Source: Pseudomonas fluorescens
GTDB lineage: Bacteria > Pseudomonadota > Gammaproteobacteria > Pseudomonadales > Pseudomonadaceae
Assembly (NCBI RefSeq): GCF_900215245.1
Contig: NZ_LT907842.1
Span: forward strand, 4,774,001 to 4,838,000
Length of the DNA stretch: 64,000 bases
Direction of reading: 5' to 3'
The notes under the pieces are model-generated. The model was not told the DNA's origin. It was given only the letters and a program-made list of their open reading frames with translations, and searched no databases. Below, in pieces: positions 11,933 through 48,223 of this stretch. Both the position numbers and the translations under genes were made by a program. Position 1 is the stretch's first letter. Each line of letters starts with the position of its first letter.

Positions 11933-12829
11933 ATGGAAATCCGCCATTTCCGCTACTTCCTGGCGGTCGCCCGCCAGCGCAACTTCACCCGCGCCGCCGA
12001 GCAATTGGGTATCGCGCCGCCCACCTTGAGCCGTCAGATCCAGGACATGGAAACTGCGTTGGGCACGCGTCTGTTTATCCGTCAGCAGCGCGAAGTCAGC
12101 CTCACCGAAGCGGGCGCGGCGTTACTGACCGAGGCGCAAGCCACGGTGCGCCAGTTCGAGTTTGCCCAGCGCAGCGCCCAGCGCGCCGGCCGTGGGGAGA
12201 TCGGGCATGTCGAACTGGGCTACGTGGCCTCGGCGGTATACACCGGGCTGCTGCAGCGGCAAATGCAGGCGTTCAGCCAGGCGTTTCCGGAGGTGAGCGT
12301 GAATGTGCGCGAATGCGCGATGGCCACATTGCCGACGGCGGTGGCAGACGGGCGCTATGACATCGGCTACATCCGCTCGCCAATGACGCTGCCCGATGGG
12401 GTAGAGGCGGTGCGCCTCGACAGTGAAGGTTTCGTGCTGGCGCTGCCGCAGGATTCCTGGCTGCTGAGGCTCAAGGCGATTGGTTGTGAACACCTGCAAA
12501 ACGAAACCTTTATCTTGCCGGAGCAAATCAGCGGCACGTTGCACGTCGCGGCGCAGGGTGGTTATGCGCCGCGTCTCGGGCCGCAACCGGGCGGCTTGGT
12601 CGCGGTGGTGGCGTTGGTGTCGCTAGGGCAGGGCGTGGCGGTGGTGCCGGCGTCGATGGTCGGGCATGTGAGCTTGCCGGGCGTGGTCTACCGCACTCTC
12701 CATGGCTGCGAGGCGGCGTCCTGGCTGTCGTTGATTTACCGGCGCTTTGAGCAAGCGCCGGCAGTGGCGCGGTATATCCAACAAGTCAAACGCTCAGTCG
12801 CGGCTGCACCGAGTCCGCCAGGCGCGTGA
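11933..12829 (+). CDS. LysR-family transcriptional regulator
   Basis: A 298-residue LysR-type regulator: winged helix-turn-helix at residues 1-60 (FTRAAEQLGIAPPTLSRQIQDMETALGTRLF), then a periplasmic-binding-protein-like effector domain. It probably controls the divergent MFS exporter gene. Its 3' end overlaps the 3' end of dhaL on the other strand by 44 bp, so transcription of the two collides there. Confidence 0.88.
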   Translation: MEIRHFRYFLAVARQRNFTRAAEQLGIAPPTLSRQIQDMETALGTRLFIRQQREVSLTEAGAALLTEAQATVRQFEFAQRSAQRAGRGEIGHVELGYVASAVYTGLLQRQMQAFSQAFPEVSVNVRECAMATLPTAVADGRYDIGYIRSPMTLPDGVEAVRLDSEGFVLALPQDSWLLRLKAIGCEHLQNETFILPEQISGTLHVAAQGGYAPRLGPQPGGLVAVVALVSLGQGVAVVPASMVGHVSLPGVVYRTLHGCEAASWLSLIYRRFEQAPAVARYIQQVKRSVAAAPSPPGA

Positions 12830-13433
12830 GGATCAGGCAGCACGACACGGCGCCGGCATCCAGTACGCCGAGGGAGCGCTCGCCCAAACGGCTGGCCCGG
12901 CCGATTTTGGCCACCAGGTCTTTGGTTGAATCGCGGCCTTGGGACGCGGCGGCTTTCATCGCCTCCAGCGCAGCGCTGAAACCCGCGCCTTGTGCCTGCG
13001 CACGTTCGAAGGCTTCAACCGCCGGGATCAGCGTGTCCATCAAACACTTGTCACCCACGCCCGCTTCGGTGATGTCCTGCAGCGAGGTCAAACCGCCGCG
13101 CAGCAAACGAGCAAAGGTGGCGGCGTCGATAGCCTCGCTGCTGCGCACTTCGTCGGCCATGCCGATAAACAGGCTGCCATACAACGGCCCCATGGAGCCG
13201 CCGATGCCTTCCATCAGGCTCAGGGTCAGCTCATCCAGGGCTTGGGCCAATGTCAGTTGGCGGCCTTCGATCATGCGGCCGCAGTGGGCGAAACCCTTGG
13301 CCATATTGATGCCGTGGTCGCCGTCGCCAATCGCGCCGTCGACTTCGCTGAGGTATTCACGGTTGGCCACGATCACGCTGACCAGGTCGGCGACGATAGC
13401 GCTGCCGTCGCGGGTGGAAAAATGCTGGCTCAT
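12786..13433 (-). CDS. dhaL: Dihydroxyacetone/erythrulose kinase, DhaL subunit
   Basis: DhaL holds the nucleotide that phosphorylates a ketose bound to DhaK. The 215 residues contain the Mg-binding triad Asp32, Asp37 and Asp39 in VDGAIGDGDHGINM, matching Asp30/35/37 of E. coli DhaL, plus GGSMGPLYG and the closing GRASRLGERSLGVLDAGAVS block. It is the last gene of the tetritol operon, 3 nt after dhaK. No DhaM (PTS) gene is present, so phosphorylation is probably by ATP, as in erythrulose kinases LerK/DerK. By context the substrate is erythrulose rather than dihydroxyacetone; this is inference. Confidence 0.88.
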   Translation of the reverse strand: MSQHFSTRDGSAIVADLVSVIVANREYLSEVDGAIGDGDHGINMAKGFAHCGRMIEGRQLTLAQALDELTLSLMEGIGGSMGPLYGSLFIGMADEVRSSEAIDAATFARLLRGGLTSLQDITEAGVGDKCLMDTLIPAVEAFERAQAQGAGFSAALEAMKAAASQGRDSTKDLVAKIGRASRLGERSLGVLDAGAVSCCLILTRLADSVQPRLSV

Positions 13434-13436
13434 GGT

Positions 13437-14438
13437 TCACTCCGCCTGGGTCATGCCGATGGAGCGGCACGGTTGGTCGATCAAGGTTTTCAGCTCGGCG
13501 TCGAGGCCGAGCAGGGTGAGGGTGACGCCCATCATCTCCAGGGAGGTGAAGTAATTGCCCACGTAGCAACGGTGAATCTTCAAGCCCTTGGCCTTGAGCT
13601 GTCGCTCGACCTCGGCGTAAAAAATGTACAGCTCCATCACCGGTGTGGCGCCCAGGCCCGAGACCAGCACCACCACGCTGTCATCGTGGCTGAAATCACG
13701 GTCAGCCAGGATCGGTGCGAGCATGCGTTCGGCCATGGCGGCGGCGGGCTCGATGGGCACAACTTCAATGCCCGGTTCGCCGTGATGGCCGATGCCCAGT
13801 TCCATCTGGCCGTCGGGGATCTGGAAGTTTGGCTTGCCCACCGCCGCAATGGTGCACGGGGTGAGGCCGATGCCAATTGAGCGGCAGTGATCGACGGTTT
13901 TCTGGGCGACGCGAATCACGCCATCGAGGTCGTAATGCTGGGCCGCTGCCGCACCGCCGATCTTCCACATGAAGATCTCCCCGGCGACGCCGCGCCGCTT
14001 GGCGATATCGGCCTTGGGGGCGGAGGCCACATCGTCGTTGGCGACCACGGTACGGATGCGCATGTCTTTGCTGGCGGCCATTTTCATTGCCAGCTTCACG
14101 TTCATGTTGTCGCCGGCATAGTTGCCGTACAGGCAGGCTACGCCAGCGCCATGGTCGGCGGCGCGGAACGCGTCGAAAAAGCTTTTGGCGGTGGGCGAGG
14201 AGAAAATCTCGCCGACGGCCACGGCGTCCACCAGGCCGGGGCCGACGTAGCCCAGAAACGCCGGCTCATGGCCCGAGCCGCCGCCGGTCACGATGCCAAC
14301 CCGGCCTTGCCCCGATGGCCTGGCTTTGACGATGACCCGAGGGTTGCTCTCGTATTGGCGCAGTTCGGGGTGGGCGACCAGAATGCCGTGCAACATGTCC
14401 TCGACCACGTGGTCCGGATCGTTGATGACTCGATTCAT
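13437..14438 (-). CDS. dhaK: Dihydroxyacetone/erythrulose kinase, DhaK subunit
   Basis: DhaK binds short ketoses covalently through a His. The 333 residues show SGGGSGHEP-type TGGGSGHEPAFLGYVG near residue 51, GNYAGDNMNVKLA near 105, and the catalytic His219 in ELGIGHHGEPGIE, equivalent to His218 of E. coli DhaK. AGGA lies 9 nt before the ATG, and an AAGAACAAGAA Crc/Hfq-type motif stands just upstream of that site. A REP pair separates it from the dehydrogenase gene upstream. With its ABC importer, two polyol dehydrogenases and an RpiB-like isomerase as partners, D- or L-erythrulose is the likely substrate. Confidence 0.9.
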   Translation of the reverse strand: MNRVINDPDHVVEDMLHGILVAHPELRQYESNPRVIVKARPSGQGRVGIVTGGGSGHEPAFLGYVGPGLVDAVAVGEIFSSPTAKSFFDAFRAADHGAGVACLYGNYAGDNMNVKLAMKMAASKDMRIRTVVANDDVASAPKADIAKRRGVAGEIFMWKIGGAAAAQHYDLDGVIRVAQKTVDHCRSIGIGLTPCTIAAVGKPNFQIPDGQMELGIGHHGEPGIEVVPIEPAAAMAERMLAPILADRDFSHDDSVVVLVSGLGATPVMELYIFYAEVERQLKAKGLKIHRCYVGNYFTSLEMMGVTLTLLGLDAELKTLIDQPCRSIGMTQAE

Positions 14439-14454
14439 AACGCGGGTTCCTGTG

Positions 14455-14465
14455 TTCTTGTTCTT
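14455..14465 (-). promoter_or_regulatory. Crc/Hfq catabolite motif before dhaK
   Basis: AAGAACAAGAA on the minus strand fits the AAnAAnAA Hfq/Crc target and ends a few nt upstream of the dhaK Shine-Dalgarno sequence, where binding would block ribosomes. Confidence 0.5.
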
Positions 14466-14484
14466 GGGGGCAACAACAATTCAA

Positions 14485-14575
14485 TGTGGGAGCGGGCTTG
14501 CTCGCGAAAGCGGTGGTTCAGTTGATGCATGTGTTGCCTGGCACTCCGCTTTCGCGAGCAAGCCCGCTCCCACAG
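14485..14575. repeat. REP pair between dhaK and the zinc dehydrogenase gene
   Basis: Two inverted GGAGCGGGCTTGCTCGCGA palindromes with a variable spacer, located between genes of one operon. Confidence 0.9.
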
Positions 14576-14592
14576 TTTTATAGGTGGCGTTC

Positions 14593-15708
14593 TTAAGGTT
14601 CCAATACCACCTTGAGCGATTTGTCCCCGCGCTCCATCACCGCAAACGCTTCCTTGAAATCCGCCAGGGCGAATTTGTGGGTCACCACGTCGCGCATGTC
14701 GATTTTGCGGTTGCCAATAAAGTCGATGGCGCGCGGGTACATGTACGGCCCCAGGTGCGAACCCAGGATGTCCAGTTCCTTGCGGTCGCCGATGATCGAC
14801 CAATCTACCGTGGCCTCGTCATTAAATACGCTGAACTCGACGAAGCGCGCCAGCTTGCGCAGCATCGCCAGGCCCTGGTTCACCGCCTTGTGATGCCCGG
14901 TGGCTTCGATATAAATGTCGCAGCCATAACCGTCGGTGATCGCGCGGATCTTTGCCATGACGTCGACGTCGGCCGGGTTCCATACTTCGTCGGCGCCCAT
15001 GCGCAGGGCGAGGGCGGCGCGTTCGGGTTTCATGTCCAGCACGATCAGCTTTTTCGGGTTGCGCAGGCGCACGGCGCCGATGATGCCGAGGCCCAGGGTG
15101 CCGGCGCCGGCTACCACCACCACGTCGTCATGGTCGACATTGGCGCGCTCGGCGGCATGCAGCGAGCAGGCCAGCGGTTCGATCAGGATCGCTTCATCGG
15201 GGGCGATGGATTCCGGCACTTTGTGGATGATGCCTTCCTTGGTGAAAATCATGTACTGGGCCATGGCGCCCTGCACGTTGTTCTGGAAGCCATAAAGGTC
15301 GTGTTTCTGGCACATCCAGTACTGGCCGTGATTGCAGAAGCGGCAGCCCCAGCACGGCACGATCTGCTCGGAGATCACCCGGTCGCCCACCTTTACCCCA
15401 CGCTTCTCGGCGCCTGGGCCCAGGGCAACCACGCGACAGACGAACTCATGCCCGGGAATCATTGGCGGTTTCACGTAGCGCGGCTGTTCGGCATCGCCCC
15501 AGAACGATGGCGCGCCGCGATACGTCTTGATGTCACCCATGCAAATGCCGCACAGCTCGACCTTGGTGAGGATCTCATCGGGGCCGGGCGTGGGCACATC
15601 GACGGTTTCCAGTCGATAGTCTTCCGGGCCATGGCAGACCACGGCCTGCATGGTTTTCGGGATGCTGGGGGAGAGCTGTTCAGCTGTGCGTTCGGTGACG
15701 GTGGACAT
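14593..15708 (-). CDS. Zinc-dependent erythritol/L-threitol-type dehydrogenase
   Basis: A 371-residue medium-chain dehydrogenase that oxidises a polyol with NAD(P). Catalytic zinc ligands are Cys53 (CGICMGD) and the GHE motif at 86-88; the structural zinc has four Cys in VPCWGCRFCNHGQYWMC; the Rossmann motif is GAGTLGLGIIGAV. It resembles the mycobacterial erythritol/L-threitol dehydrogenase group, and that role fits its neighbours. An alternative is a related 2-ketose- or threonine-dehydrogenase-like activity. It follows the short-chain dehydrogenase gene by 26 bp and ends before a REP pair. Confidence 0.8.
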   Translation of the reverse strand: MSTVTERTAEQLSPSIPKTMQAVVCHGPEDYRLETVDVPTPGPDEILTKVELCGICMGDIKTYRGAPSFWGDAEQPRYVKPPMIPGHEFVCRVVALGPGAEKRGVKVGDRVISEQIVPCWGCRFCNHGQYWMCQKHDLYGFQNNVQGAMAQYMIFTKEGIIHKVPESIAPDEAILIEPLACSLHAAERANVDHDDVVVVAGAGTLGLGIIGAVRLRNPKKLIVLDMKPERAALALRMGADEVWNPADVDVMAKIRAITDGYGCDIYIEATGHHKAVNQGLAMLRKLARFVEFSVFNDEATVDWSIIGDRKELDILGSHLGPYMYPRAIDFIGNRKIDMRDVVTHKFALADFKEAFAVMERGDKSLKVVLEP

Positions 15709-15734
15709 GACAAAACCTCACGACAAAAAATGAA

Positions 15735-16490
15735 TTACTGAATGCTGTAGCCGCCGTCGATCACCATGTTGGCGCCGGTGATCATCTGCGCGGCATCGCT
15801 GAGCAGGTACAGCGCCAGCCCGGCGATCTCTTCCGGCTGGGCAAAACGGCCGGCCGGGATCTGCAATTTGGCCTTTTCACCCACTTCACCGGCCCAGGCT
15901 TTCTTGCCCAGGGCGGTCTCGACAATGGTCGGGGAGATGGCGTTGACGTTGATCTGCGGCGCCCATTCCATGGCCAACACCTTGGTCATGCCGACGATGG
16001 CGGCCTTGCTGGCGCAGTAGGCGACGTGGCGGTCCAGGCCGATCACGGCGGCCTGGGAGGCGAGGTTGACGATGCGCCCGCCGCCGTTGGCGAGCATGTG
16101 TCGGGCGCAGGCCTGGGCCACGAAGAAGCTGGCTTTGAGGTTGATGTCCAGGGTGCTGTCCCAGGCGCTTTCGCTGACATCGACGGCCTTGTCGAGCAGC
16201 ACGATGCCGGCGCTGTTGATCAGGTAATCCAGGCGCTGAAAGTGTTCGAATACGTGGACGATGGTGGGTTGTATCTGGCCGATCTGACCCAGATCGACGG
16301 CAATGCCCAGATGCTCGGCGCCCAGGCGTGCGGCGACGGCCACCACGGCCGGGTCACGGTCCAGTAACGCCACGCGTGCTCCGCGTTCCGCCAGCAGGCT
16401 GGCGCAGGCCAGGCCGATGCCGGCGGCGCCACCGGTAATCACCGCGCAACGGCCGGTGAGGTCGAAGGCTTGGTTCCAGAATCCAGACAT
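15735..16490 (-). CDS. Short-chain polyol dehydrogenase (D-threitol/GolD-like)
   Basis: A 251-residue SDR enzyme. NAD site TGGAAGIG at 19-26, catalytic Ser145, Tyr158 and Lys162 (YCASK). Similar SDRs (Listeria GolD and mycobacterial D-threitol dehydrogenase) oxidise D-threitol or D-arabitol to the ketose. The ATG at 16490 has GGAG 8 nt upstream; the longer in-frame ORF to 16616 is only translated REP sequence. Two dehydrogenases of different families in one operon suggest that it handles two stereoisomers of a tetritol. The exact substrate is inference. Confidence 0.82.
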   Translation of the reverse strand: MSGFWNQAFDLTGRCAVITGGAAGIGLACASLLAERGARVALLDRDPAVVAVAARLGAEHLGIAVDLGQIGQIQPTIVHVFEHFQRLDYLINSAGIVLLDKAVDVSESAWDSTLDINLKASFFVAQACARHMLANGGGRIVNLASQAAVIGLDRHVAYCASKAAIVGMTKVLAMEWAPQINVNAISPTIVETALGKKAWAGEVGEKAKLQIPAGRFAQPEEIAGLALYLLSDAAQMITGANMVIDGGYSIQ

Positions 16491-16527
16491 ACGATTAACT
16501 CCATTTTTGAAAACGGTGGAGATCCAA

Positions 16528-16617
16528 TGTGGGAGCGGGCTTGCTCGCGAAAGCGGTGGATCAGCTGACGGATGTGCTGACTGACACACCGCCTTCGCGA
16601 GCAAGCCCGCTCCCACA
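16528..16617. repeat. REP pair between the SBP and SDR genes
   Basis: Inverted GGAGCGGGCTTGCTCGCGA palindromes with a spacer, in the 155-bp gap between the binding-protein gene and the SDR gene. It may stabilise the upstream mRNA, giving more binding protein than enzymes. Confidence 0.9.
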
Positions 16618-16645
16618 GTTGGAATGCATTCACAGGTCGAAACCG

Positions 16646-17653
16646 TTACTTACCGCCGCTGACCTGTTTGTACAGCGCATCCGCGTTCGCATTGGTCACC
16701 GGCACCCACGGCAGGATGTAGTTCTTGGCGGTGCCGTCGGCCCATTTCACGTCCTTGGCATAGCGTTCCCAGATCACCGATTGCGGCTTGTAGTCCTTGC
16801 CGGCGAGTGCGCGCAATGCCACGTCCAGTGCGCCTTGAGACTGGGCCTGGGCGTCTTGCAGGAAGGTCGTGACTTCGTCTTTCTTCGCCGCCTGGATCGC
16901 ATCCGGCATGCCGTCGATCGAGGTCACCGGCACGTCTTTGGATGACAATCCATGGGATTTCAGCGCCTGCACGGCACCGAGGGCCATGTCGTCGTTCTGG
17001 GCGATCACACCGTTAATGCCTTTGGGGTGCGCGTTCAGCCAGTCTTCGGTGAGGGTGAGGGCCTGGGCGCGGTCCCAGTTGGCCGTTTTTTTCTCGATGA
17101 TCTTGATGTCGGGGTGTTTGCCCAGCACTTCCAGTTCGCCTTTTTCCCGGTCGATCTGCGCCGACTGGCCAATCGGGCCCTGGATGATCACGACGTTGCC
17201 GCGGCCGTTAAGTTTGTCGACCATGGCCTGGGCTTGCAGGCGCCCGCCTTCCACATCGTCGTTACCCACATAAGGCACGGCGGCATCGGCTACTTTCGTA
17301 TTGGAGGCGATGACGACCACGTCGTTGCTCATGGCTTGTTTTACCGTGCCTACGCCGGCCTTGGTGTCGATGGGCACGAACAGGATGGCGTCGTAGTGCT
17401 GGGTGACCATGTTTTCGATCTGGTTGTTTTGGGTCAGGGCGTCGTAGTTGCCGTCGAACACGGTCAACTGCACGGTGCCGTCCTTGACCGCCGGGTGTTC
17501 CTTCAGCTCGCGGACCCAGTTCTGCATGAACTGGCCCTTGAGGCCGTACACGGCGGCGCCGACTTTGTAGGTCTTGCCATCGGCGGCCAGGGCAATACTG
17601 CTGGCGAGCAGGGAGAGAGCCGCAACGGCGGCCAACGTCATTCCAGGTTTCAT
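16646..17653 (-). CDS. Sugar/polyol ABC transporter periplasmic binding protein
   Basis: A 335-residue ribose-binding-protein-like (Peripla_BP_4) protein with a signal peptide (about 1-23, SLLASSIALA). Hinge and ligand motifs of the family are visible: NNQIENMVTQHYDAILFVPID, VASNTKVAD-like stretch, GPIGQSAQIDREKGE and AQNDDMALGAVQAL. It is third in the leftward operon after the ATPase and permease genes, an unusual order since the binding protein often comes first. An AACAATAA Crc/Hfq motif precedes its ribosome site. The ligand is predicted to be a tetritol or erythrulose from the rest of the operon. Confidence 0.9.
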   Translation of the reverse strand: MKPGMTLAAVAALSLLASSIALAADGKTYKVGAAVYGLKGQFMQNWVRELKEHPAVKDGTVQLTVFDGNYDALTQNNQIENMVTQHYDAILFVPIDTKAGVGTVKQAMSNDVVVIASNTKVADAAVPYVGNDDVEGGRLQAQAMVDKLNGRGNVVIIQGPIGQSAQIDREKGELEVLGKHPDIKIIEKKTANWDRAQALTLTEDWLNAHPKGINGVIAQNDDMALGAVQALKSHGLSSKDVPVTSIDGMPDAIQAAKKDEVTTFLQDAQAQSQGALDVALRALAGKDYKPQSVIWERYAKDVKWADGTAKNYILPWVPVTNANADALYKQVSGGK

Positions 17654-17667
17654 GGTGAGAACTCCGC

Positions 17668-17675
17668 TTATTGTT
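17668..17675 (-). promoter_or_regulatory. Crc/Hfq catabolite motif before the SBP gene
   Basis: AACAATAA on the minus strand, directly before the GGAG ribosome site of the sugar-binding-protein gene. Confidence 0.45.
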
Positions 17676-17711
17676 GTAGGTCGTTCAGTTCATTGTTGGG
17701 AGGGAAAGCGA

Positions 17712-18689
17712 TTAGCGTTTTTTCTTGCGCCACACGTCGATCAGCACGGCGAACACGATGATCAGGCCCTTGGCGACCTGCTGGTAATAGGACGACACGC
17801 CGAGCAGGTTCAGCCCGTTGTTGATCACGCCGATCAACAACGCACCAAACAGCGTGCCGACAATGCTGCCGGTGCCGCCCGACAAGCTGGTGCCGCCGAT
17901 AACCACTGCGGCAATCGCATCCAGCTCATAGGAAACCCCGGCCTGGGGCAGGGCGGAAGTGGTGCGGGCCGACAACACCACGCCGGCTAACCCGGCGAGC
18001 AGGCCGGACACCACGTACACCGAAAACATCACCTTGCGCACGCCGATGCCGGAGGTGCGTGCGCTCTTTTCATTGCCGCCCACGGCGTACACATAGCGGC
18101 CGTAAGTGGTGTAGCGCAGCACCATCCAGAAGATCAGCGCGACCACGGCGAAGATGACGATGGGCACGCCAATCGGCCCGACCTTGCCAATGCCCAGCGC
18201 CAGGTAGGCGTCGGGCAGGTCCGTGATGGGGCTGCCATCGTTGAGAATGAAGGTCATGCCCCGCGCGATGCTGAGCATGCCGAGGGTGGCCACGAATGGC
18301 GGGATCGACAGGTTGGCGACCATAAAGCCGTTGACCACGCCGAGCATGGCCCCGGCAAACATCCCGGCACTGACGGCCGCCAGCAGGCCGTAGCCTTGAG
18401 TCGCGACCATTGCGCTGCACAGCCCGGCGAAGGCCAGGATCGAGCCCACCGACAAGTCGATGCCCTTGGTCAGGATCACGTAGGTCATGCCCACGGCGAG
18501 GATGCCGTTGATCGAGGTCTGGCGCAGGATGTCCATCCAGTTGCGCCAGGTCATGAAATATTCGCTGGAAAACGCCATCACCACGCACAGCAGGATAAAC
18601 ACCAGCGGCAGGCCGAAGCGGTCGAGGGATAAACGCAGTCGATTGCGCGGCGCGGCAGTCATGGGGGCAGCGATGGTTTTGGCGTTCAT
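17712..18689 (-). CDS. Sugar/polyol ABC transporter permease (RbsC-like)
   Basis: A 325-residue inner-membrane permease of the ribose/xylose family with about 8-10 membrane segments and the signature region GGTSLSGGTGSIVGTLFGALLIGVINNGLNLLG. Its ATG overlaps the TGA stop of the ATPase gene (ATGA at 18686-18689), showing translational coupling and a shared complex. Confidence 0.9.
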   Translation of the reverse strand: MNAKTIAAPMTAAPRNRLRLSLDRFGLPLVFILLCVVMAFSSEYFMTWRNWMDILRQTSINGILAVGMTYVILTKGIDLSVGSILAFAGLCSAMVATQGYGLLAAVSAGMFAGAMLGVVNGFMVANLSIPPFVATLGMLSIARGMTFILNDGSPITDLPDAYLALGIGKVGPIGVPIVIFAVVALIFWMVLRYTTYGRYVYAVGGNEKSARTSGIGVRKVMFSVYVVSGLLAGLAGVVLSARTTSALPQAGVSYELDAIAAVVIGGTSLSGGTGSIVGTLFGALLIGVINNGLNLLGVSSYYQQVAKGLIIVFAVLIDVWRKKKR

Positions 18690-20173
18690 GAGGCAAGACT
18701 CAACAAGGCTTCCTGGGAAAGGGCGGTGTCGGTGCTGATAGTCACCAGCCGGCCGCCCTTGAATACGGCGATGCGATCACTCAGGTGCAGCAGCTCAGGG
18801 GCTTCGGACGACACCACAATGGCGGCGCCACCGGCGCGCACGAACTGGTCGAGCAGGTGGTAAATCTCCTGCTTGGCACCTTCATCAATGCCCCGGGTCG
18901 GTTCATCGCATAACAGGCACACCGGTTCGGTCGACAGGCATTTGGCGAGCACCACTTTTTGCTGATTGCCACCGCTCATGGAGGCCACCGGCAGTTCCAG
19001 GGAGGTGGTTTTGATCTGCAGGCGCTTGACCATGTCCTGGGCCAGTTGGGTTTCCTTGCGCGCATTGATCAGCGACCAGCGCGACAGGCGTTTGTAGGCC
19101 GACAGCGCAATGTTGGAAAGAATGCTGCCGGTGAGCACCAGGCCGCTGTCTTTGCGGTCCTCGGTGACCAGCGACATGCCGGCGTTGATCGTGGCTTTGG
19201 GCAAGCCGATCGGCATGGGCTTGCCTTGCAGGGTCACGCTGCCGGAATCCGCAACCGTCAGGCCGTAGATGCAGTTGAGGAATTCGCTGCGCCCCGACCC
19301 CATCAGGCCGTAAATGCCGAGGATTTCACCCTGGCGCAGTTGCAGGCTGATGTCGTGGAATTCGCCGTTGCGGCTCAGGTTGTCAACTTGCAGGCAGGTC
19401 GTGGGCGCACATTCGCGGCCGACCTTGTGGTCAATGCGCGTCAGCTCCTGGCCGACGATGCCCCGCACCAGGTGGTTGCGGTCGATATCGGCCATGCGTC
19501 CGCTTTCGACAAAGGCGCCATCGCGAAAGATGCTGTAGTCATCGGCGATCTGTGCCAGTTCGCTCAGGCGATGCGACACATAGATGATGCCGGCGCCGCG
19601 CGCGGTGAGACGGCGGATGGCTTTGAACAGGGTTTGCGCCTCGTGCTCGCCGATGGCCGAGGTGGGTTCGTCCATGATCATCACCTGGCAGTCGTGGCTG
19701 AACGCCTTGGCGATTTCCACCAACTGGATCTGCGCCACGCTCAGGCGGTGCATGGGGCGGGTGGCGTCGACGTCGAACTCCAGGCTTTCGAGCAGCTCGC
19801 GGGTGCGGCGGTTGAGGGTCTTGCTGTCGACGATGCAGCCGGCGTGGCGCGGTTCGCGGCCCAGCCAGATATTTTCGGCGACGGTCATGTAGGGGATGGG
19901 TTCCAGTTCCTGGGTGATCATCGCGATCCCCGCTGCCAGGGCTTCACTGGGGCGGCTGAACTGAACCGGGGCGCCGTTGAGCGCAATGCTGCCGGCGTCG
20001 CGTTGGGTAATGCCCATCAGGATGCTCAGGAACGTCGACTTGCCGGCGCCATTGCCGCCACACAACGCATGCACGCTGCCGGCCCGTAGAGAGAGGCGCC
20101 CGTCACGCAGGGCAGGCACCCCGGCGTAAGCCTTGGCGACGTGTTCAGCCTGGAGCAGTAATGGCGTGGCCAT
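18686..20173 (-). CDS. Sugar/polyol ABC transporter ATPase (RbsA-like, two domains)
   Basis: A 495-residue twin ATPase of the ribose class. Domain 1 has Walker A GGNGAGKST, signature LSVAQIQLVEIAKA and Walker B VMIMDEPTSA; domain 2 has the degenerate Walker A GLMGSGRSE and signature MSGGNQQKVVLAK, as normal for RbsA-type proteins. The ATG at 20173 follows GAGG by 8 nt; an upstream in-frame ATG at 20218 lacks a ribosome site. It is the first gene of the operon, next to the divergent promoter region shared with rpiB and the SorC regulator. Confidence 0.9.
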   Translation of the reverse strand: MATPLLLQAEHVAKAYAGVPALRDGRLSLRAGSVHALCGGNGAGKSTFLSILMGITQRDAGSIALNGAPVQFSRPSEALAAGIAMITQELEPIPYMTVAENIWLGREPRHAGCIVDSKTLNRRTRELLESLEFDVDATRPMHRLSVAQIQLVEIAKAFSHDCQVMIMDEPTSAIGEHEAQTLFKAIRRLTARGAGIIYVSHRLSELAQIADDYSIFRDGAFVESGRMADIDRNHLVRGIVGQELTRIDHKVGRECAPTTCLQVDNLSRNGEFHDISLQLRQGEILGIYGLMGSGRSEFLNCIYGLTVADSGSVTLQGKPMPIGLPKATINAGMSLVTEDRKDSGLVLTGSILSNIALSAYKRLSRWSLINARKETQLAQDMVKRLQIKTTSLELPVASMSGGNQQKVVLAKCLSTEPVCLLCDEPTRGIDEGAKQEIYHLLDQFVRAGGAAIVVSSEAPELLHLSDRIAVFKGGRLVTISTDTALSQEALLSLAS

Positions 20174-20195
20174 CGGCGTGTCCTCGTGCTGTGAA

Positions 20196-20203
20196 TTCTT
20201 ATT
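20196..20203 (-). promoter_or_regulatory. Crc/Hfq catabolite motif in the tetritol operon leader
   Basis: AATAAGAA on the minus strand, between the probable transcription start and the first gene's GAGG ribosome site. Confidence 0.4.
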
Positions 20204-20254
20204 AGGTCGCACAGTCATGTTTCGCTGTGATCATATGTGTACCAAATGAAATTC

Positions 20255-20412
20255 TGATCAGTCAATCTCTTTCACTTAAAACCTATGAATCCCACCATGA
20301 GTATTAATAGTGCCCTGTAATAGGGCTTTGACTGGCGAGTCAGTTAAAACTCACTTGACAGAAAGGGCTTATTGCCTGAGAAATGACTGATAGAAATTTC
20401 AGTGACTGATCA
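20255..20412. promoter_or_regulatory. Candidate SorC operators: repeated TGACTGATCA motifs
   Basis: The 283-bp divergent gap holds TGACTGATCA at 20403-20412, TGACTGATAG at 20384-20393 (direct repeat, 19 bp apart), the reverse complement TGATCAGTCA at 20255-20264, and a palindrome TGACT-ggcg-AGTCA at 20329-20342. One end faces the ABC operon, the other faces rpiB. A single regulator, most likely the adjacent SorC protein, probably binds these to control both directions. Confidence 0.6.
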
Positions 20413-20456
20413 TTTGATCGATCTTAAGTGCCTTCTCGGCAGTGGAGCCAGATGCC

Positions 20457-20918
20457 ATGAACACACCTTTCCCGGTGGCTATCGGATGCGATGAAGCGGG
20501 TTTTGAGCTCAAAGAGCTGTTGAAGCGCCATATCGAGGCGTTGGGTTATCCGGTGACCGACTTCGGCACGCATTCCACGGCGCCGGTGCTGTACCCGGAC
20601 ATCGCCCTGGCGGTGGCTACCGCCATCAATGCCGGGCAGCAACGCCTGGGTGTGCTGGTATGCGGCACCGGGATCGGCATGGCGATCTCGGCCAACAAGG
20701 TGCTGGGCATTCGTGCGGCCCAGGCCCATGACACCTATTCGGCGGAGCGCGCGCGCAAGAGCAACGATGCGCAAATCCTGTCGATCGGCGCGCGGGTGAT
20801 CGGTGCCGAATTGGCCAAAAGTATCGTCAAGTCGTTCCTGGAGTCGGAGTTCGAGGCCGCGCGTTCAGGGGCCAAGGTCGAGCGGATCAATGCGATCGAG
20901 CGCGATGGGCATCAGTAG
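20457..20918 (+). CDS. RpiB-family isomerase, probable tetrose-phosphate (erythrulose-4-P) isomerase
   Basis: A 153-residue RpiB/LacAB fold protein. The catalytic Cys69 is present in VLVCGTGIGMAISANK (Cys66 in E. coli RpiB). Two His residues of RpiB are replaced: His10 of the DHxG motif is Glu13 here (CDEAGF), and the ring-opening His99 is Ser102 (ARKSND). Tetrose 4-phosphates cannot form the usual sugar ring, so loss of a ring-opening acid fits conversion of D-erythrulose 4-phosphate to D-erythrose 4-phosphate, as done by DerI/EryI-type enzymes. The ATG at 20457 is preferred over a GTG at 20442, since GGAG stands 9 nt before it. First gene of the rightward unit, followed by the SorC regulator. 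Confidence 0.85.
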   Translation: MNTPFPVAIGCDEAGFELKELLKRHIEALGYPVTDFGTHSTAPVLYPDIALAVATAINAGQQRLGVLVCGTGIGMAISANKVLGIRAAQAHDTYSAERARKSNDAQILSIGARVIGAELAKSIVKSFLESEFEAARSGAKVERINAIERDGHQ

Positions 20919-20981
20919 TGGACGTAACGGGGCAAGAGTCGGGAGAATGCGCCTTTGACGCCGAAACGGAAGCCCGTCCCC

Positions 20982-21962
20982 ATGAGTGACAGTACCCAGC
21001 GCATTGCCAGCGATATCGATCAGATGACCGAAGTGGCGATGCTCTATTACCTTGAGAACGTCACTCAGGAAGCCATCGCCAAACGCTTCGACCTGTCGCG
21101 GGCGAAAGTCAGCCGCTTGCTCAAACGTGCGCGCGATGAAGGGATTGTCGAGGTGCGCGTGTTGCAGCACCCGGCGATGAACAACGAGCTGGAGCGGGCA
21201 TTGGTGGAGCGCTTCAAGCTGGACCGCGCTTTGATTGCGGTCGACCACAGCGACCCCGACACCCAGCGCTCGGCTGTCGCCAGCCTGGTGGCGAATTACC
21301 TGAACAAGACGCTCAGCGACGGCATGATTGTCGCCGTGGGCATGGGCCGTAACGTCGGTGCCGTGGCGGATAACGTGTTTTTGCCGGTGACGCGCAATTG
21401 CACGTTTGTCTGCGCCATCGGCGGTTCGCTCAAGGCTGGCGAATACATGAACCCCGATCATATTTGCCGACGCCTGGCCCTGCGTTTTGGTGGCGAGAGC
21501 GAAAGCCTGTACGCCCCGGCGTTGGTGGCGAACCCCGAGTTACGCGGCGTGTTGATCAACAACGACACCGTGCGCTCGACCCTGGATCGCGCCCGGCGCG
21601 CGGACATTGCGCTGATTGGCATTGGCGACATGAGCGAGAACAGCAACATGGTGCGCATGGGCTGGTTCTCGCCGCAGGAGATCGCGCAGGCGCGCTTGTC
21701 CGGCACCGTGGGCGACATGATGGGGTATGACTTTATCGACATCCACGGCCAGCCGGCGGTCAACGCAATTCAAGGCCGGGTGATCGGGCTGACGGTGCAG
21801 GAGTTGTTCCGCATCCCGGATGTGGTGGCGATTGCCAGTGAGAACACCAAGGCAGCGGCAACGCTTGGCGCGTTGCGCTCGGGGGTGATCAATACGTTGG
21901 CGACCACGGTAACGAATGCCCACACCATCCTGGCGCTGGATGATGCGACACGCAAAACCTGA
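20982..21962 (+). CDS. SorC/DeoR-family sugar-binding transcriptional regulator
   Basis: A 326-residue regulator: N-terminal helix-turn-helix (about 20-60: MLYYLENVTQEAIAKRFDLSRAKVSRLLKRA) and C-terminal SorC sugar-phosphate-binding domain (GMGRNVGAVADN, IGDMSENSNMVRMG). Members such as EryD and SorC respond to phosphorylated intermediates of polyol catabolism. The ATG at 20982 is preferred over a TTG at 20955. It follows rpiB by 63 bp and probably controls both itself and the divergent ABC/dehydrogenase/kinase operon through the TGACTGAT repeats. Confidence 0.9.
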   Translation: MSDSTQRIASDIDQMTEVAMLYYLENVTQEAIAKRFDLSRAKVSRLLKRARDEGIVEVRVLQHPAMNNELERALVERFKLDRALIAVDHSDPDTQRSAVASLVANYLNKTLSDGMIVAVGMGRNVGAVADNVFLPVTRNCTFVCAIGGSLKAGEYMNPDHICRRLALRFGGESESLYAPALVANPELRGVLINNDTVRSTLDRARRADIALIGIGDMSENSNMVRMGWFSPQEIAQARLSGTVGDMMGYDFIDIHGQPAVNAIQGRVIGLTVQELFRIPDVVAIASENTKAAATLGALRSGVINTLATTVTNAHTILALDDATRKT

Positions 21963-21979: not shown

Positions 21980-22070
21980 TGTGGGAGCGGGCTTGCTCGC
22001 AAAGGCGGTGTGTCAGTCGACATATGGATTGACTGAACTTCCGCATTCGCGAGCAAGCCCGCTCCCACAT
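21980..22070. repeat. REP pair after the SorC gene
   Basis: Inverted GGAGCGGGCTTGCTCGC-type palindromes with a spacer, 18 bp after the regulator's stop codon. Confidence 0.88.
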
Positions 22071-47314: not shown

Positions 47315-48223
47315 ATGTGGGAGCGGGCTTGCTCGCGAATGCGGTGTGCCAGTCGGCTTATTTGTAACTGACCCAGCGCCTTCGCGAGCAAGCCCGCTCC
47401 CACAATGTTGATCGAGTTCAGCTACCAGCACCGTAGTGCACTGCTTTTCTGTGGGAGCTGGCTTGCCTGCGATGCAGACACTTCGATACATCAGGCATAC
47501 CCGGCAGCAGGCCCCATACCAGCTCCCAGATTGACCCAATACAGTCTAAAGAACTGCCCACCCTCTGCCTGATGTACCCAGTTCAAAATGTGGGAGCGGG
47601 CTTGCTCGCGAATGCGGTGGGTCAGTCAGCTCATTTGTAACTGACCCAGCGCATTCGCGCGCAAGCCCGCTCCCACAATGTTGACCGAGTTCAGCTGCCA
47701 GCACCGTAGTGCTCTGCTTTTCTGTGGGAGCTGGCTTGCCTGCGATACAGACACTTCGATACATCAGGCATGCCCAGCCGCAGACCCCATACCAGCTCCC
47801 AGATTGACCCAATACAGTCTAAAGAACTGCCCACCCTCTGCCTGATGTACCCAGTTCAAAATGTGGGAGCGGGCTTGCTCGCGAAAGCGGTGTGCCAGTC
47901 GGCTTATTTGTAACTGCCCCACCGCATTCGCGAGCAAGCCCGCTCCCACAATGTTGATCGAGTTCAGTTGCCAGCACCGCAGTGCTCTGCTTTTCTGTGG
48001 GAGCTGGCTTGCCTGCGATGCAGACACTTCGATACATCAGGCATGCCCAGCCGCAGACCCCATACCAGCTCCCAGATTGACCCAATACAGTCTGAAGAAC
48101 TGCCCACCTTCTGCCTGATGTACCCAGTTCCAAATGTGGGAGCGGGCTTGCTCGCGAATGCGGTGGGTCAGTCAGCTCATTTGTAACTGACCCAGCGCAT
48201 TCGCGAGCAAGCCCGCTCCCACA
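47315..48223. repeat. Tandem array of a 273-bp REP-based unit (three copies plus part)
   Basis: Units begin at 47315, 47588, 47861 and 48134, so the period is exactly 273 bp each time; the fourth is only its first REP pair. Each full unit has an inverted pair of the common GGAGCGGGCTTGCTCGCGAA REP, then a single REP of the second type (GGAGCTGGCTTGCCTGCGAT), then unique sequence. Copies differ by few bases, which implies recent amplification. Confidence 0.93.

Follow-up and report, generated by a model that had tools for sequence, protein, structure and literature searches.

Mycobacterium smegmatis reportedly possesses pathways for D-threitol, L-threitol and erythritol, in work attributed to Huang and colleagues in 2015, with DthD, EltD, DerK, LerK, LerI and DerI as their enzymes. 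LerI is the L-erythrulose 1-phosphate isomerase, and we take it to be related to triosephosphate isomerase (TIM). As described in PMC10733421, L-erythrulose 1-phosphate and D-erythrulose 4-phosphate are formed from L-threitol and erythritol by EltD together with LerK, and LerI and DerI carry them on to erythrose 4-phosphate. By this chemistry, erythritol, and likewise D-threitol, needs one kinase plus DerI, and L-threitol needs LerI too. In the alphaproteobacterial EryABC/EryH/EryI system, described in part in PMC12780249, the final enzyme is likewise an RpiB-like isomerase and the end product erythrose 4-phosphate. In this study, we analyzed a window of 64,000 nucleotides of Pseudomonas fluorescens DNA, positions 4774001-4838000 of a single-contig 6.51-Mb genome. 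An initial annotation of the window had listed nine genes at 12786-21962 and read them as a tetritol/erythrulose locus with D-erythrulose 4-phosphate as an intermediate. All nine are present and intact there, arranged as two divergent units. Our results support a narrower form of that reading, and indicate that the locus is probably a cluster under SorC control that serves the D-erythrulose branch in the breakdown of tetritols. Judging from sequence, its substrates are most likely D-threitol and erythritol.

The leftward unit (minus strand) encodes, in this order, the ATPase, permease and binding protein of an ATP-binding cassette (ABC) importer, a short-chain dehydrogenase/reductase (SDR), a zinc-dependent dehydrogenase (ZnDH), DhaK and DhaL. 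The rightward unit (plus strand) encodes an RpiB-like isomerase and then a SorC regulator. In the pathway that we propose, D-threitol and erythritol would be taken in by the binding protein (16646..17653; PF13407) together with a CUT2 importer, made up of a permease of the CUT2/ribose type (17712..18689; PF02653, 165 bits) and an RbsA/AraG-like ATPase with twin ABC domains (18686..20218; PF00005 in two stretches). The SDR, of the GolD/DthD family (15735..16490; NF005309), would oxidize D-threitol to D-erythrulose, and the ZnDH, a medium-chain dehydrogenase/reductase of the EltD clade (14593..15708; PF08240 and PF00107), would produce D-erythrulose from erythritol. DhaK (13437..14438; PF02733, 381 bits), as the putative substrate subunit of a D-erythrulose kinase, and the nucleotide-binding subunit DhaL (12786..13433; PF02734, TIGR02365) would use ATP to form D-erythrulose 4-phosphate, and the RpiB-like protein (20457..20918; PF02502) would isomerize this product to erythrose 4-phosphate. 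Finally, SorC, a regulator of the sugar-sensing type (20982..21962; PF04198, 244 bits), would sense a pathway metabolite and act at TGATCATWTGATC palindromes. In contrast to the alphaproteobacterial Ery pathway, oxidation is thus proposed to precede phosphorylation.

The grouping of these genes is well conserved in Pseudomonas. Among 298 genomes of the genus, our own included, 47 carry an orthologous DhaK (at least 87% identity) and 8 more only a weaker Dak match. An orthologous ZnDH (at least 90% identity; one partial) is found in 46 of the 298, all within the DhaK set, that is, in 46 of 47 genomes with DhaK vs none of the 251 others; 14 further genomes carry only a paralogue at 52-54%. Since genomes of one genus are not independent, the Fisher value for this association overstates the linkage. 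The 47 DhaK genomes comprise 34 that could be read as longer loci (L092-L125, 8.8 to 20 kb), the window as one more, 11 seen only as loci of about 4 kb (L081-L091), and one (G206) seen only as a match. All nine genes are found in 25 of the 34 longer loci, including one with two partial matches (L109) and one whose ZnDH has an in-frame stop codon (L121; G085:C17:6032-7123); a contig end truncates one locus (L113), and ZnDH is missing from eight. The recurrence of the nine-gene set in 25 of 34 other loci shows that the grouping is not due to chance.

Seven of the eight loci without ZnDH also lack the binding protein, and a search of the eight genomes located ZnDH elsewhere in seven of them, adjoining the binding protein. 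The cluster is therefore split in these seven genomes (L158-L164 for the binding protein and ZnDH; L115, L117-L120, L123 and L124 for the rest), cleanly so in six. In these six, the binding protein and ZnDH occupy the site that holds the whole cluster in the kin of the window, flanked by TerC on one side and by SppA, with or without LysR and a major facilitator superfamily (MFS) gene, on the other. The second place holds RpiB, ATPase, permease, SDR, DhaK, DhaL and SorC; in L117, this block adjoins a pyrroloquinoline quinone (PQQ) dehydrogenase and an OprB porin. The seventh genome (G044) shows different surroundings and an extra RpiB beside the binding protein and ZnDH, so that RpiB is present at both parts. 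In the eighth genome (G070, locus L122), the binding protein lies within the block and no ZnDH was found at 1e-60 or better in the genome; this cluster is possibly a D-threitol-only form.

Both parts of the split clusters share a palindrome. In the window, TGATCATTTGATC(G) lies at 20407..20420 in the promoter region between the two divergent units, upstream of RpiB, and is the proposed SorC operator; exact TGATCATNTGATC occurs once in the whole 6.5-Mb genome, at window positions 20407-20419. A second, weaker operator-like site, with 3 mismatches to TGATCATATGATCA, adjoins the start of the ABC operon (20228..20241). When 34 divergent promoter regions were aligned (the window and 33 of 41 Pseudomonas loci), TGATCAT-TGATC appeared close to where RpiB begins and a related site close to the beginning of the ATPase gene, and the core of the 20228..20241 site was conserved in this alignment. 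The 14-base palindrome was picked after seeing this alignment; the seven SBP-ZnDH sites L158-L164, named for the substrate-binding protein (SBP) and ZnDH that they hold, lie outside it. The 41 loci (797 kb) contain 55 sites with at most 2 mismatches to TGATCATATGATCA, all within 330 bases upstream of the ATPase, RpiB or SBP gene, and none elsewhere in the 797 kb. At least one such site is present in 35 of the 41 loci, the exceptions being L109-L112 with a 3-mismatch site, L114 with a 4-mismatch site, and L113, which lacks the region. Three runs of a Markov control on 158 kb gave no hits, vs 11 observed there. Moreover, each of the seven split SBP-ZnDH units and each of their seven partner blocks has at least one palindrome with 2 or fewer mismatches. 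The conserved pairing of SorC with the site suggests that SorC is the protein that binds it, and the direction of regulation is likewise our deduction. A split regulon with a shared palindrome is the part of these results that a specialist would not have expected.

The kinase and its genomic context differ from the described systems. DhaK of the locus is the single Dak1 gene of its genome, and DhaL passes TIGR02365 with 161 bits (cut-off 138.3). The initial annotation had noted the lack of a DhaM partner, and this holds genome-wide, as no EIIA-man/DhaM-like gene (PF03610) was found in the whole genome; run as a control on 14 named genomes, the same search gave matches in 5, one of them E. coli. 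Hence, DhaK and DhaL stand without a partner of that type from the phosphotransferase system (PTS), and their phosphate donor is presumably ATP. Separate DhaK and DhaL subunits are common to the locus and the PTS-dependent dihydroxyacetone kinase DhaKLM, whereas DhaM is a mark of the latter. A quick tree, with warnings of joined long branches, places the kinase in a subfamily other than that of DerK, still within the Dak family; with separate subunits and about 40% identity, it is not an ortholog of the mycobacterial D-erythrulose 4-kinase. The genome holds one TIM-family gene (PF00121), far from the locus, and no second, LerI/EryH-like TIM was found by the PF00121 search, which bears out the reported absence of an EryH. 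No FGGY gene, such as an EryA-like kinase, is present among the nine locus genes, the rest of the genome not having been searched for this family. The locus thus differs from the alphaproteobacterial Ery system in having neither an EryA-like kinase nor an EryH-like TIM.

The RpiB-like gene is the sole member of the RpiB family in its genome, which also has one separate RpiA. An RpiB dedicated to ribose 5-phosphate would therefore be redundant. We take His10 and Arg137 of E. coli RpiB to be phosphate-binding residues. The window protein has Glu13 and Lys140 at these positions, and so lacks the pattern of the housekeeping ribose-5-phosphate isomerase B, and keeps the residue corresponding to R133. 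The solved ribose-5-phosphate isomerases 3ph3, 3he8 and 2vvr (E. coli) have His at the Glu13 position and, near the C-terminus, Arg at the Lys140 position. DhaK-linked actinobacterial RpiB copies have Asp, Asn or Lys at the His10 position and Lys at the Arg137 position. Two other chains named putative ribose-5-phosphate isomerase (3qd5 and 3sdw) resemble these DhaK-linked copies, so the label alone does not decide.

Regarding the dehydrogenases, the SDR passes the GolD/DthD model NF005309 with 384 bits (cut-off 286), which justifies its earlier description as GolD-like. In a maximum-likelihood tree, obtained with a warning of joined long branches, a 29-row clade with 98/97 support includes actinobacterial EltD and the window ZnDH. 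The latter groups with copies from Burkholderia and Cupriavidus and, at a greater distance, from Firmicutes; actinobacterial EltD and a set of Pseudomonas copies (52-53%) form the other branches of the clade. One outlying ZnDH relative at 51-54% is present in 11 of 14 actinobacterial genomes, where the next best match reaches 30-34%. The name erythritol/L-threitol dehydrogenase is attached to several of the Burkholderia relatives at 81-82%, and others at similar identity are called iditol 2-dehydrogenase or plain zinc-dependent dehydrogenase. The genome under study has a second zinc dehydrogenase of the EltD clade (53%) at C1:6419078-6420133, outside the window. In L165, the kin of this copy is accompanied by an FGGY kinase, an SDR and a CUT2 importer, and may belong to a pentitol locus.

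Several observations weigh against a tetritol cluster. The 52-53% Pseudomonas paralogue in the EltD clade shares its operon with a xylulokinase-like kinase of the FGGY family and a further SDR (the latter seen in L165), and an actinobacterial EltD (L151) also has an FGGY gene nearby. The clade, FGGY-linked copies included, may hold pentitol enzymes, and so membership in it cannot by itself distinguish C4 from C5 substrates. The RpiB-like protein exceeds the cut-off of the ribose-5-phosphate isomerase B model TIGR01120 (153.8 vs 138.65) and passes two wider subfamily models; on the rhizobial DerI model NF051858 it reaches 158 bits, under the cut-off of 240. The nearest solved relatives of the binding protein, by fold and sequence, are M. 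smegmatis MSMEG_3599 and, nearly tied, MSMEG_3598, whose ligands we take to be xylitol and L-sorbitol. Among solved enzymes, those of the PTS type are nearer to DhaK and DhaL than the fused ones of the ATP type, identity between the kinase and DerK is only about 40%, and G070 has a cluster without ZnDH. In addition, database protein names are transferred, and hence partly circular. The clade, the isomerase model and the binding protein would all suit a pentitol locus, in which the dehydrogenases would make a pentulose (such as D-ribulose or D-xylulose), DhaKL would phosphorylate it, and RpiB would feed ribose 5-phosphate; the transaldolase and transketolase of the plasmid relatives described below would suit pentoses too. 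However, in the window as well as in those plasmid relatives that were read, the cluster kinase belongs to the Dak family and not to FGGY, RpiA is already present, and RpiB lacks the two residues found in E. coli RpiB and two other solved ribose-5-phosphate isomerases. Pentitols may moreover be served by the separate EltD-clade copy of the genome, by analogy with L165. We therefore regard a pentitol locus as improbable, and the C4 assignment rests mostly on the Dak kinase and the dedicated isomerase.

A tetritol locus in which L-threitol would also be a full substrate, with TpiA acting as L-erythrulose 1-phosphate isomerase, seems very improbable. PMC10733421 lends it some weight, since L-threitol and erythritol alike yield erythrulose phosphates through EltD and LerK, and mutations in LerI and TpiA acted together in engineered E. 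coli. However, the genome has a single TIM-family gene, and thus no evident L-erythrulose 1-phosphate isomerase. Furthermore, a LerI-like TIM directly adjoins RpiB and DhaKL in 3 of the 4 actinobacterial genomes that have it, the three whose surroundings were read (G303, L151; G299, L168; G304, L169), and none is found beside the window genes. Hence, L-threitol is an unlikely substrate: the initial annotation, which had claimed every step for the tetritols, is supported for D-threitol and erythritol and not for L-threitol, as this would need an isomerase of the LerI/EryH type. Equally hard to credit is the use of a branched or other C3-C5 ketose through a Dak-family kinase, as known for dihydroxyacetone and D-apulose: the PTS-type relatives of DhaK and DhaL would fit it, but neither pathway is known to account for the conservation of an RpiB-like isomerase next to DhaKL, and an ABC importer plus two dehydrogenases for polyols are not required for dihydroxyacetone.

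A tetritol cluster for erythritol and D-threitol also agrees with the comparison to actinobacteria. A scan of named genomes with PDB chain 4rsm_A, from which 78 of 149 matching stretches were kept, yielded actinobacterial loci, M. smegmatis not being among them. In Mycolicibacterium sp. BiH015 (L146), related genes lie within 15 kb: a SorC-type gene (29% identical to that of the window), ZnDH (53%), a fused DhaK-DhaL (40% and 33%), RpiB (42%), a CUT2-type ATPase (38%), permease (42%) and binding protein (36%), and a DthD-family SDR (51%; NF005309, 390 vs 286 bits). The ABC ribose-type importer and the two dehydrogenase families had been put forward as distinguishing the Pseudomonas arrangement; both are present in L146, so this distinction falls. 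Many near relatives of the L146 kinase are named D-erythrulose 4-kinase and others just dihydroxyacetone kinase; many near relatives of the L151 ZnDH are named erythritol/L-threitol dehydrogenase and others threonine dehydrogenase-like. The window therefore has in common with the M. smegmatis pathways an EltD-clade ZnDH, a DthD-family SDR, a Dak-type kinase, an RpiB-like isomerase and an importer whose binding protein resembles MSMEG_3599, and with L146 a SorC-type regulator. It differs in its single kinase with separate DhaK and DhaL of another subfamily, its lack of LerI and of a second ABC importer (the SBP_bac_1 kind, beside EltD in L151), and its divergent RpiB-SorC unit. The likeness to mycobacterial clusters proposed at the outset thus holds for the gene set, with a kinase of another subfamily. 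Among 11 EltD-bearing actinobacterial genomes, seven have one TIM (G298, G300, G301, G302, G306, G307 and G311) and three have two (G299, G304 and G305); in G303, the only TIM found is one of the weaker-scoring, LerI-like copies. LerI-like genes, when present, have a fixed place, and EltD clusters without them are common.

Relatives of the cluster are also found on plasmids. A tblastn search detected DhaK at 65-69% and ZnDH at 60-63% identity in Klebsiella, Raoultella, E. coli and Salmonella. K. pneumoniae pCAV1042-183 (L170) carries tkt, tal and RpiB, and divergently ZnDH, MFS, DhaK, DhaL and SorC; Salmonella pSA20021456.1 (L171) carries tal and RpiB, and divergently ZnDH, MFS, SDR, DhaK, DhaL and SorC. 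Both plasmids are typed as conjugative. Their proteins resemble those of the window (DhaK 67-68%, ZnDH 60-62%, DhaL 59-62%, RpiB 54-56%, SorC 53%, and the Salmonella SDR 54%), but an MFS transporter replaces the ABC importer. The transaldolase on both, plus the transketolase in Klebsiella, points to entry into the pentose phosphate pathway by a compound such as erythrose 4-phosphate. A Pseudalkalibacillus plasmid carries ZnDH, MFS, RpiB, DhaK, DhaL and a fructose-bisphosphatase gene, and a Halomonas locus (L172) combines ZnDH (61%), SorC (72%), RpiB (63%) and an ABC importer with a more distant DhaK (36%). No SDR is annotated in the K. pneumoniae or Pseudalkalibacillus plasmid stretches, so ZnDH may be combined with DhaKL and RpiB even where the stretch lacks an SDR. 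In L060, L061 and L072, the SDR accompanies DhaK and RpiB, and the best ZnDH match of these genomes is only 30-32%; the window and the Salmonella plasmid hold both dehydrogenases. All four SorC-bearing relatives outside the genus (L170, L171, L172 and L174) have a 2- or 3-mismatch site upstream of RpiB, and no palindrome site was found upstream of RpiB in Pseudalkalibacillus, whose regulator is of the DeoR type. Since 3-mismatch sites also occur elsewhere in the out-of-genus stretches, this palindrome evidence is weak.

These data lead us to a joint proposal, to which we give an even chance. SorC would unite in trans, through a palindrome at both places, a cluster whose two parts have come to lie far from each other in some species; and the split DhaK-DhaL would be D-erythrulose 4-kinases that use ATP and form a family of their own, akin to the PTS-type enzymes. 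This family would also be present on enterobacterial plasmids of the conjugative type, accompanied there by a transaldolase or transketolase gene.

All nine locus genes are open frames with strong Pfam matches. The named NCBIfam models shown for ZnDH, the binding protein, the permease, the ATPase (AraG/RbsA models), DhaK and SorC are all under cut-off. The listed SDR frame of 293 amino acids begins at a GTG within a repetitive extragenic palindromic (REP) element, and translation probably begins at the ATG at 16490. Inverted pairs of GTGGGAGCGGGCTTGCTCGCGAA, forming REP doublets, are located at 14486-14573 between DhaK and ZnDH, at 16529-16616 between SDR and the binding protein, and at 21981-22068 after SorC. 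Relatives vary at the first two junctions, and many have no match to the REP pattern used. Elsewhere in the window, four REP doublets with a regular 273-base spacing lie at 47317-48222.

The type of pathway described here is already known from mycobacteria, and what sets the Pseudomonas form apart is its layout and the lineage of its kinase. The co-occurrence of ZnDH and DhaK, the split cluster with a shared palindrome, and the plasmid relatives with transaldolase or transketolase are new. One tetrose-utilizing isolate is nearest to Pseudomonas protegens, and neither dihydroxyacetone kinase nor DhaK is named in the text of that report (PMC12780249). Altogether, our results offer a testable gene set for growth of Pseudomonas on erythritol and D-threitol, plus a candidate operator. 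The natural module swaps suggest which enzyme goes with which tetritol, at a time when tetroses are of interest as feedstocks.

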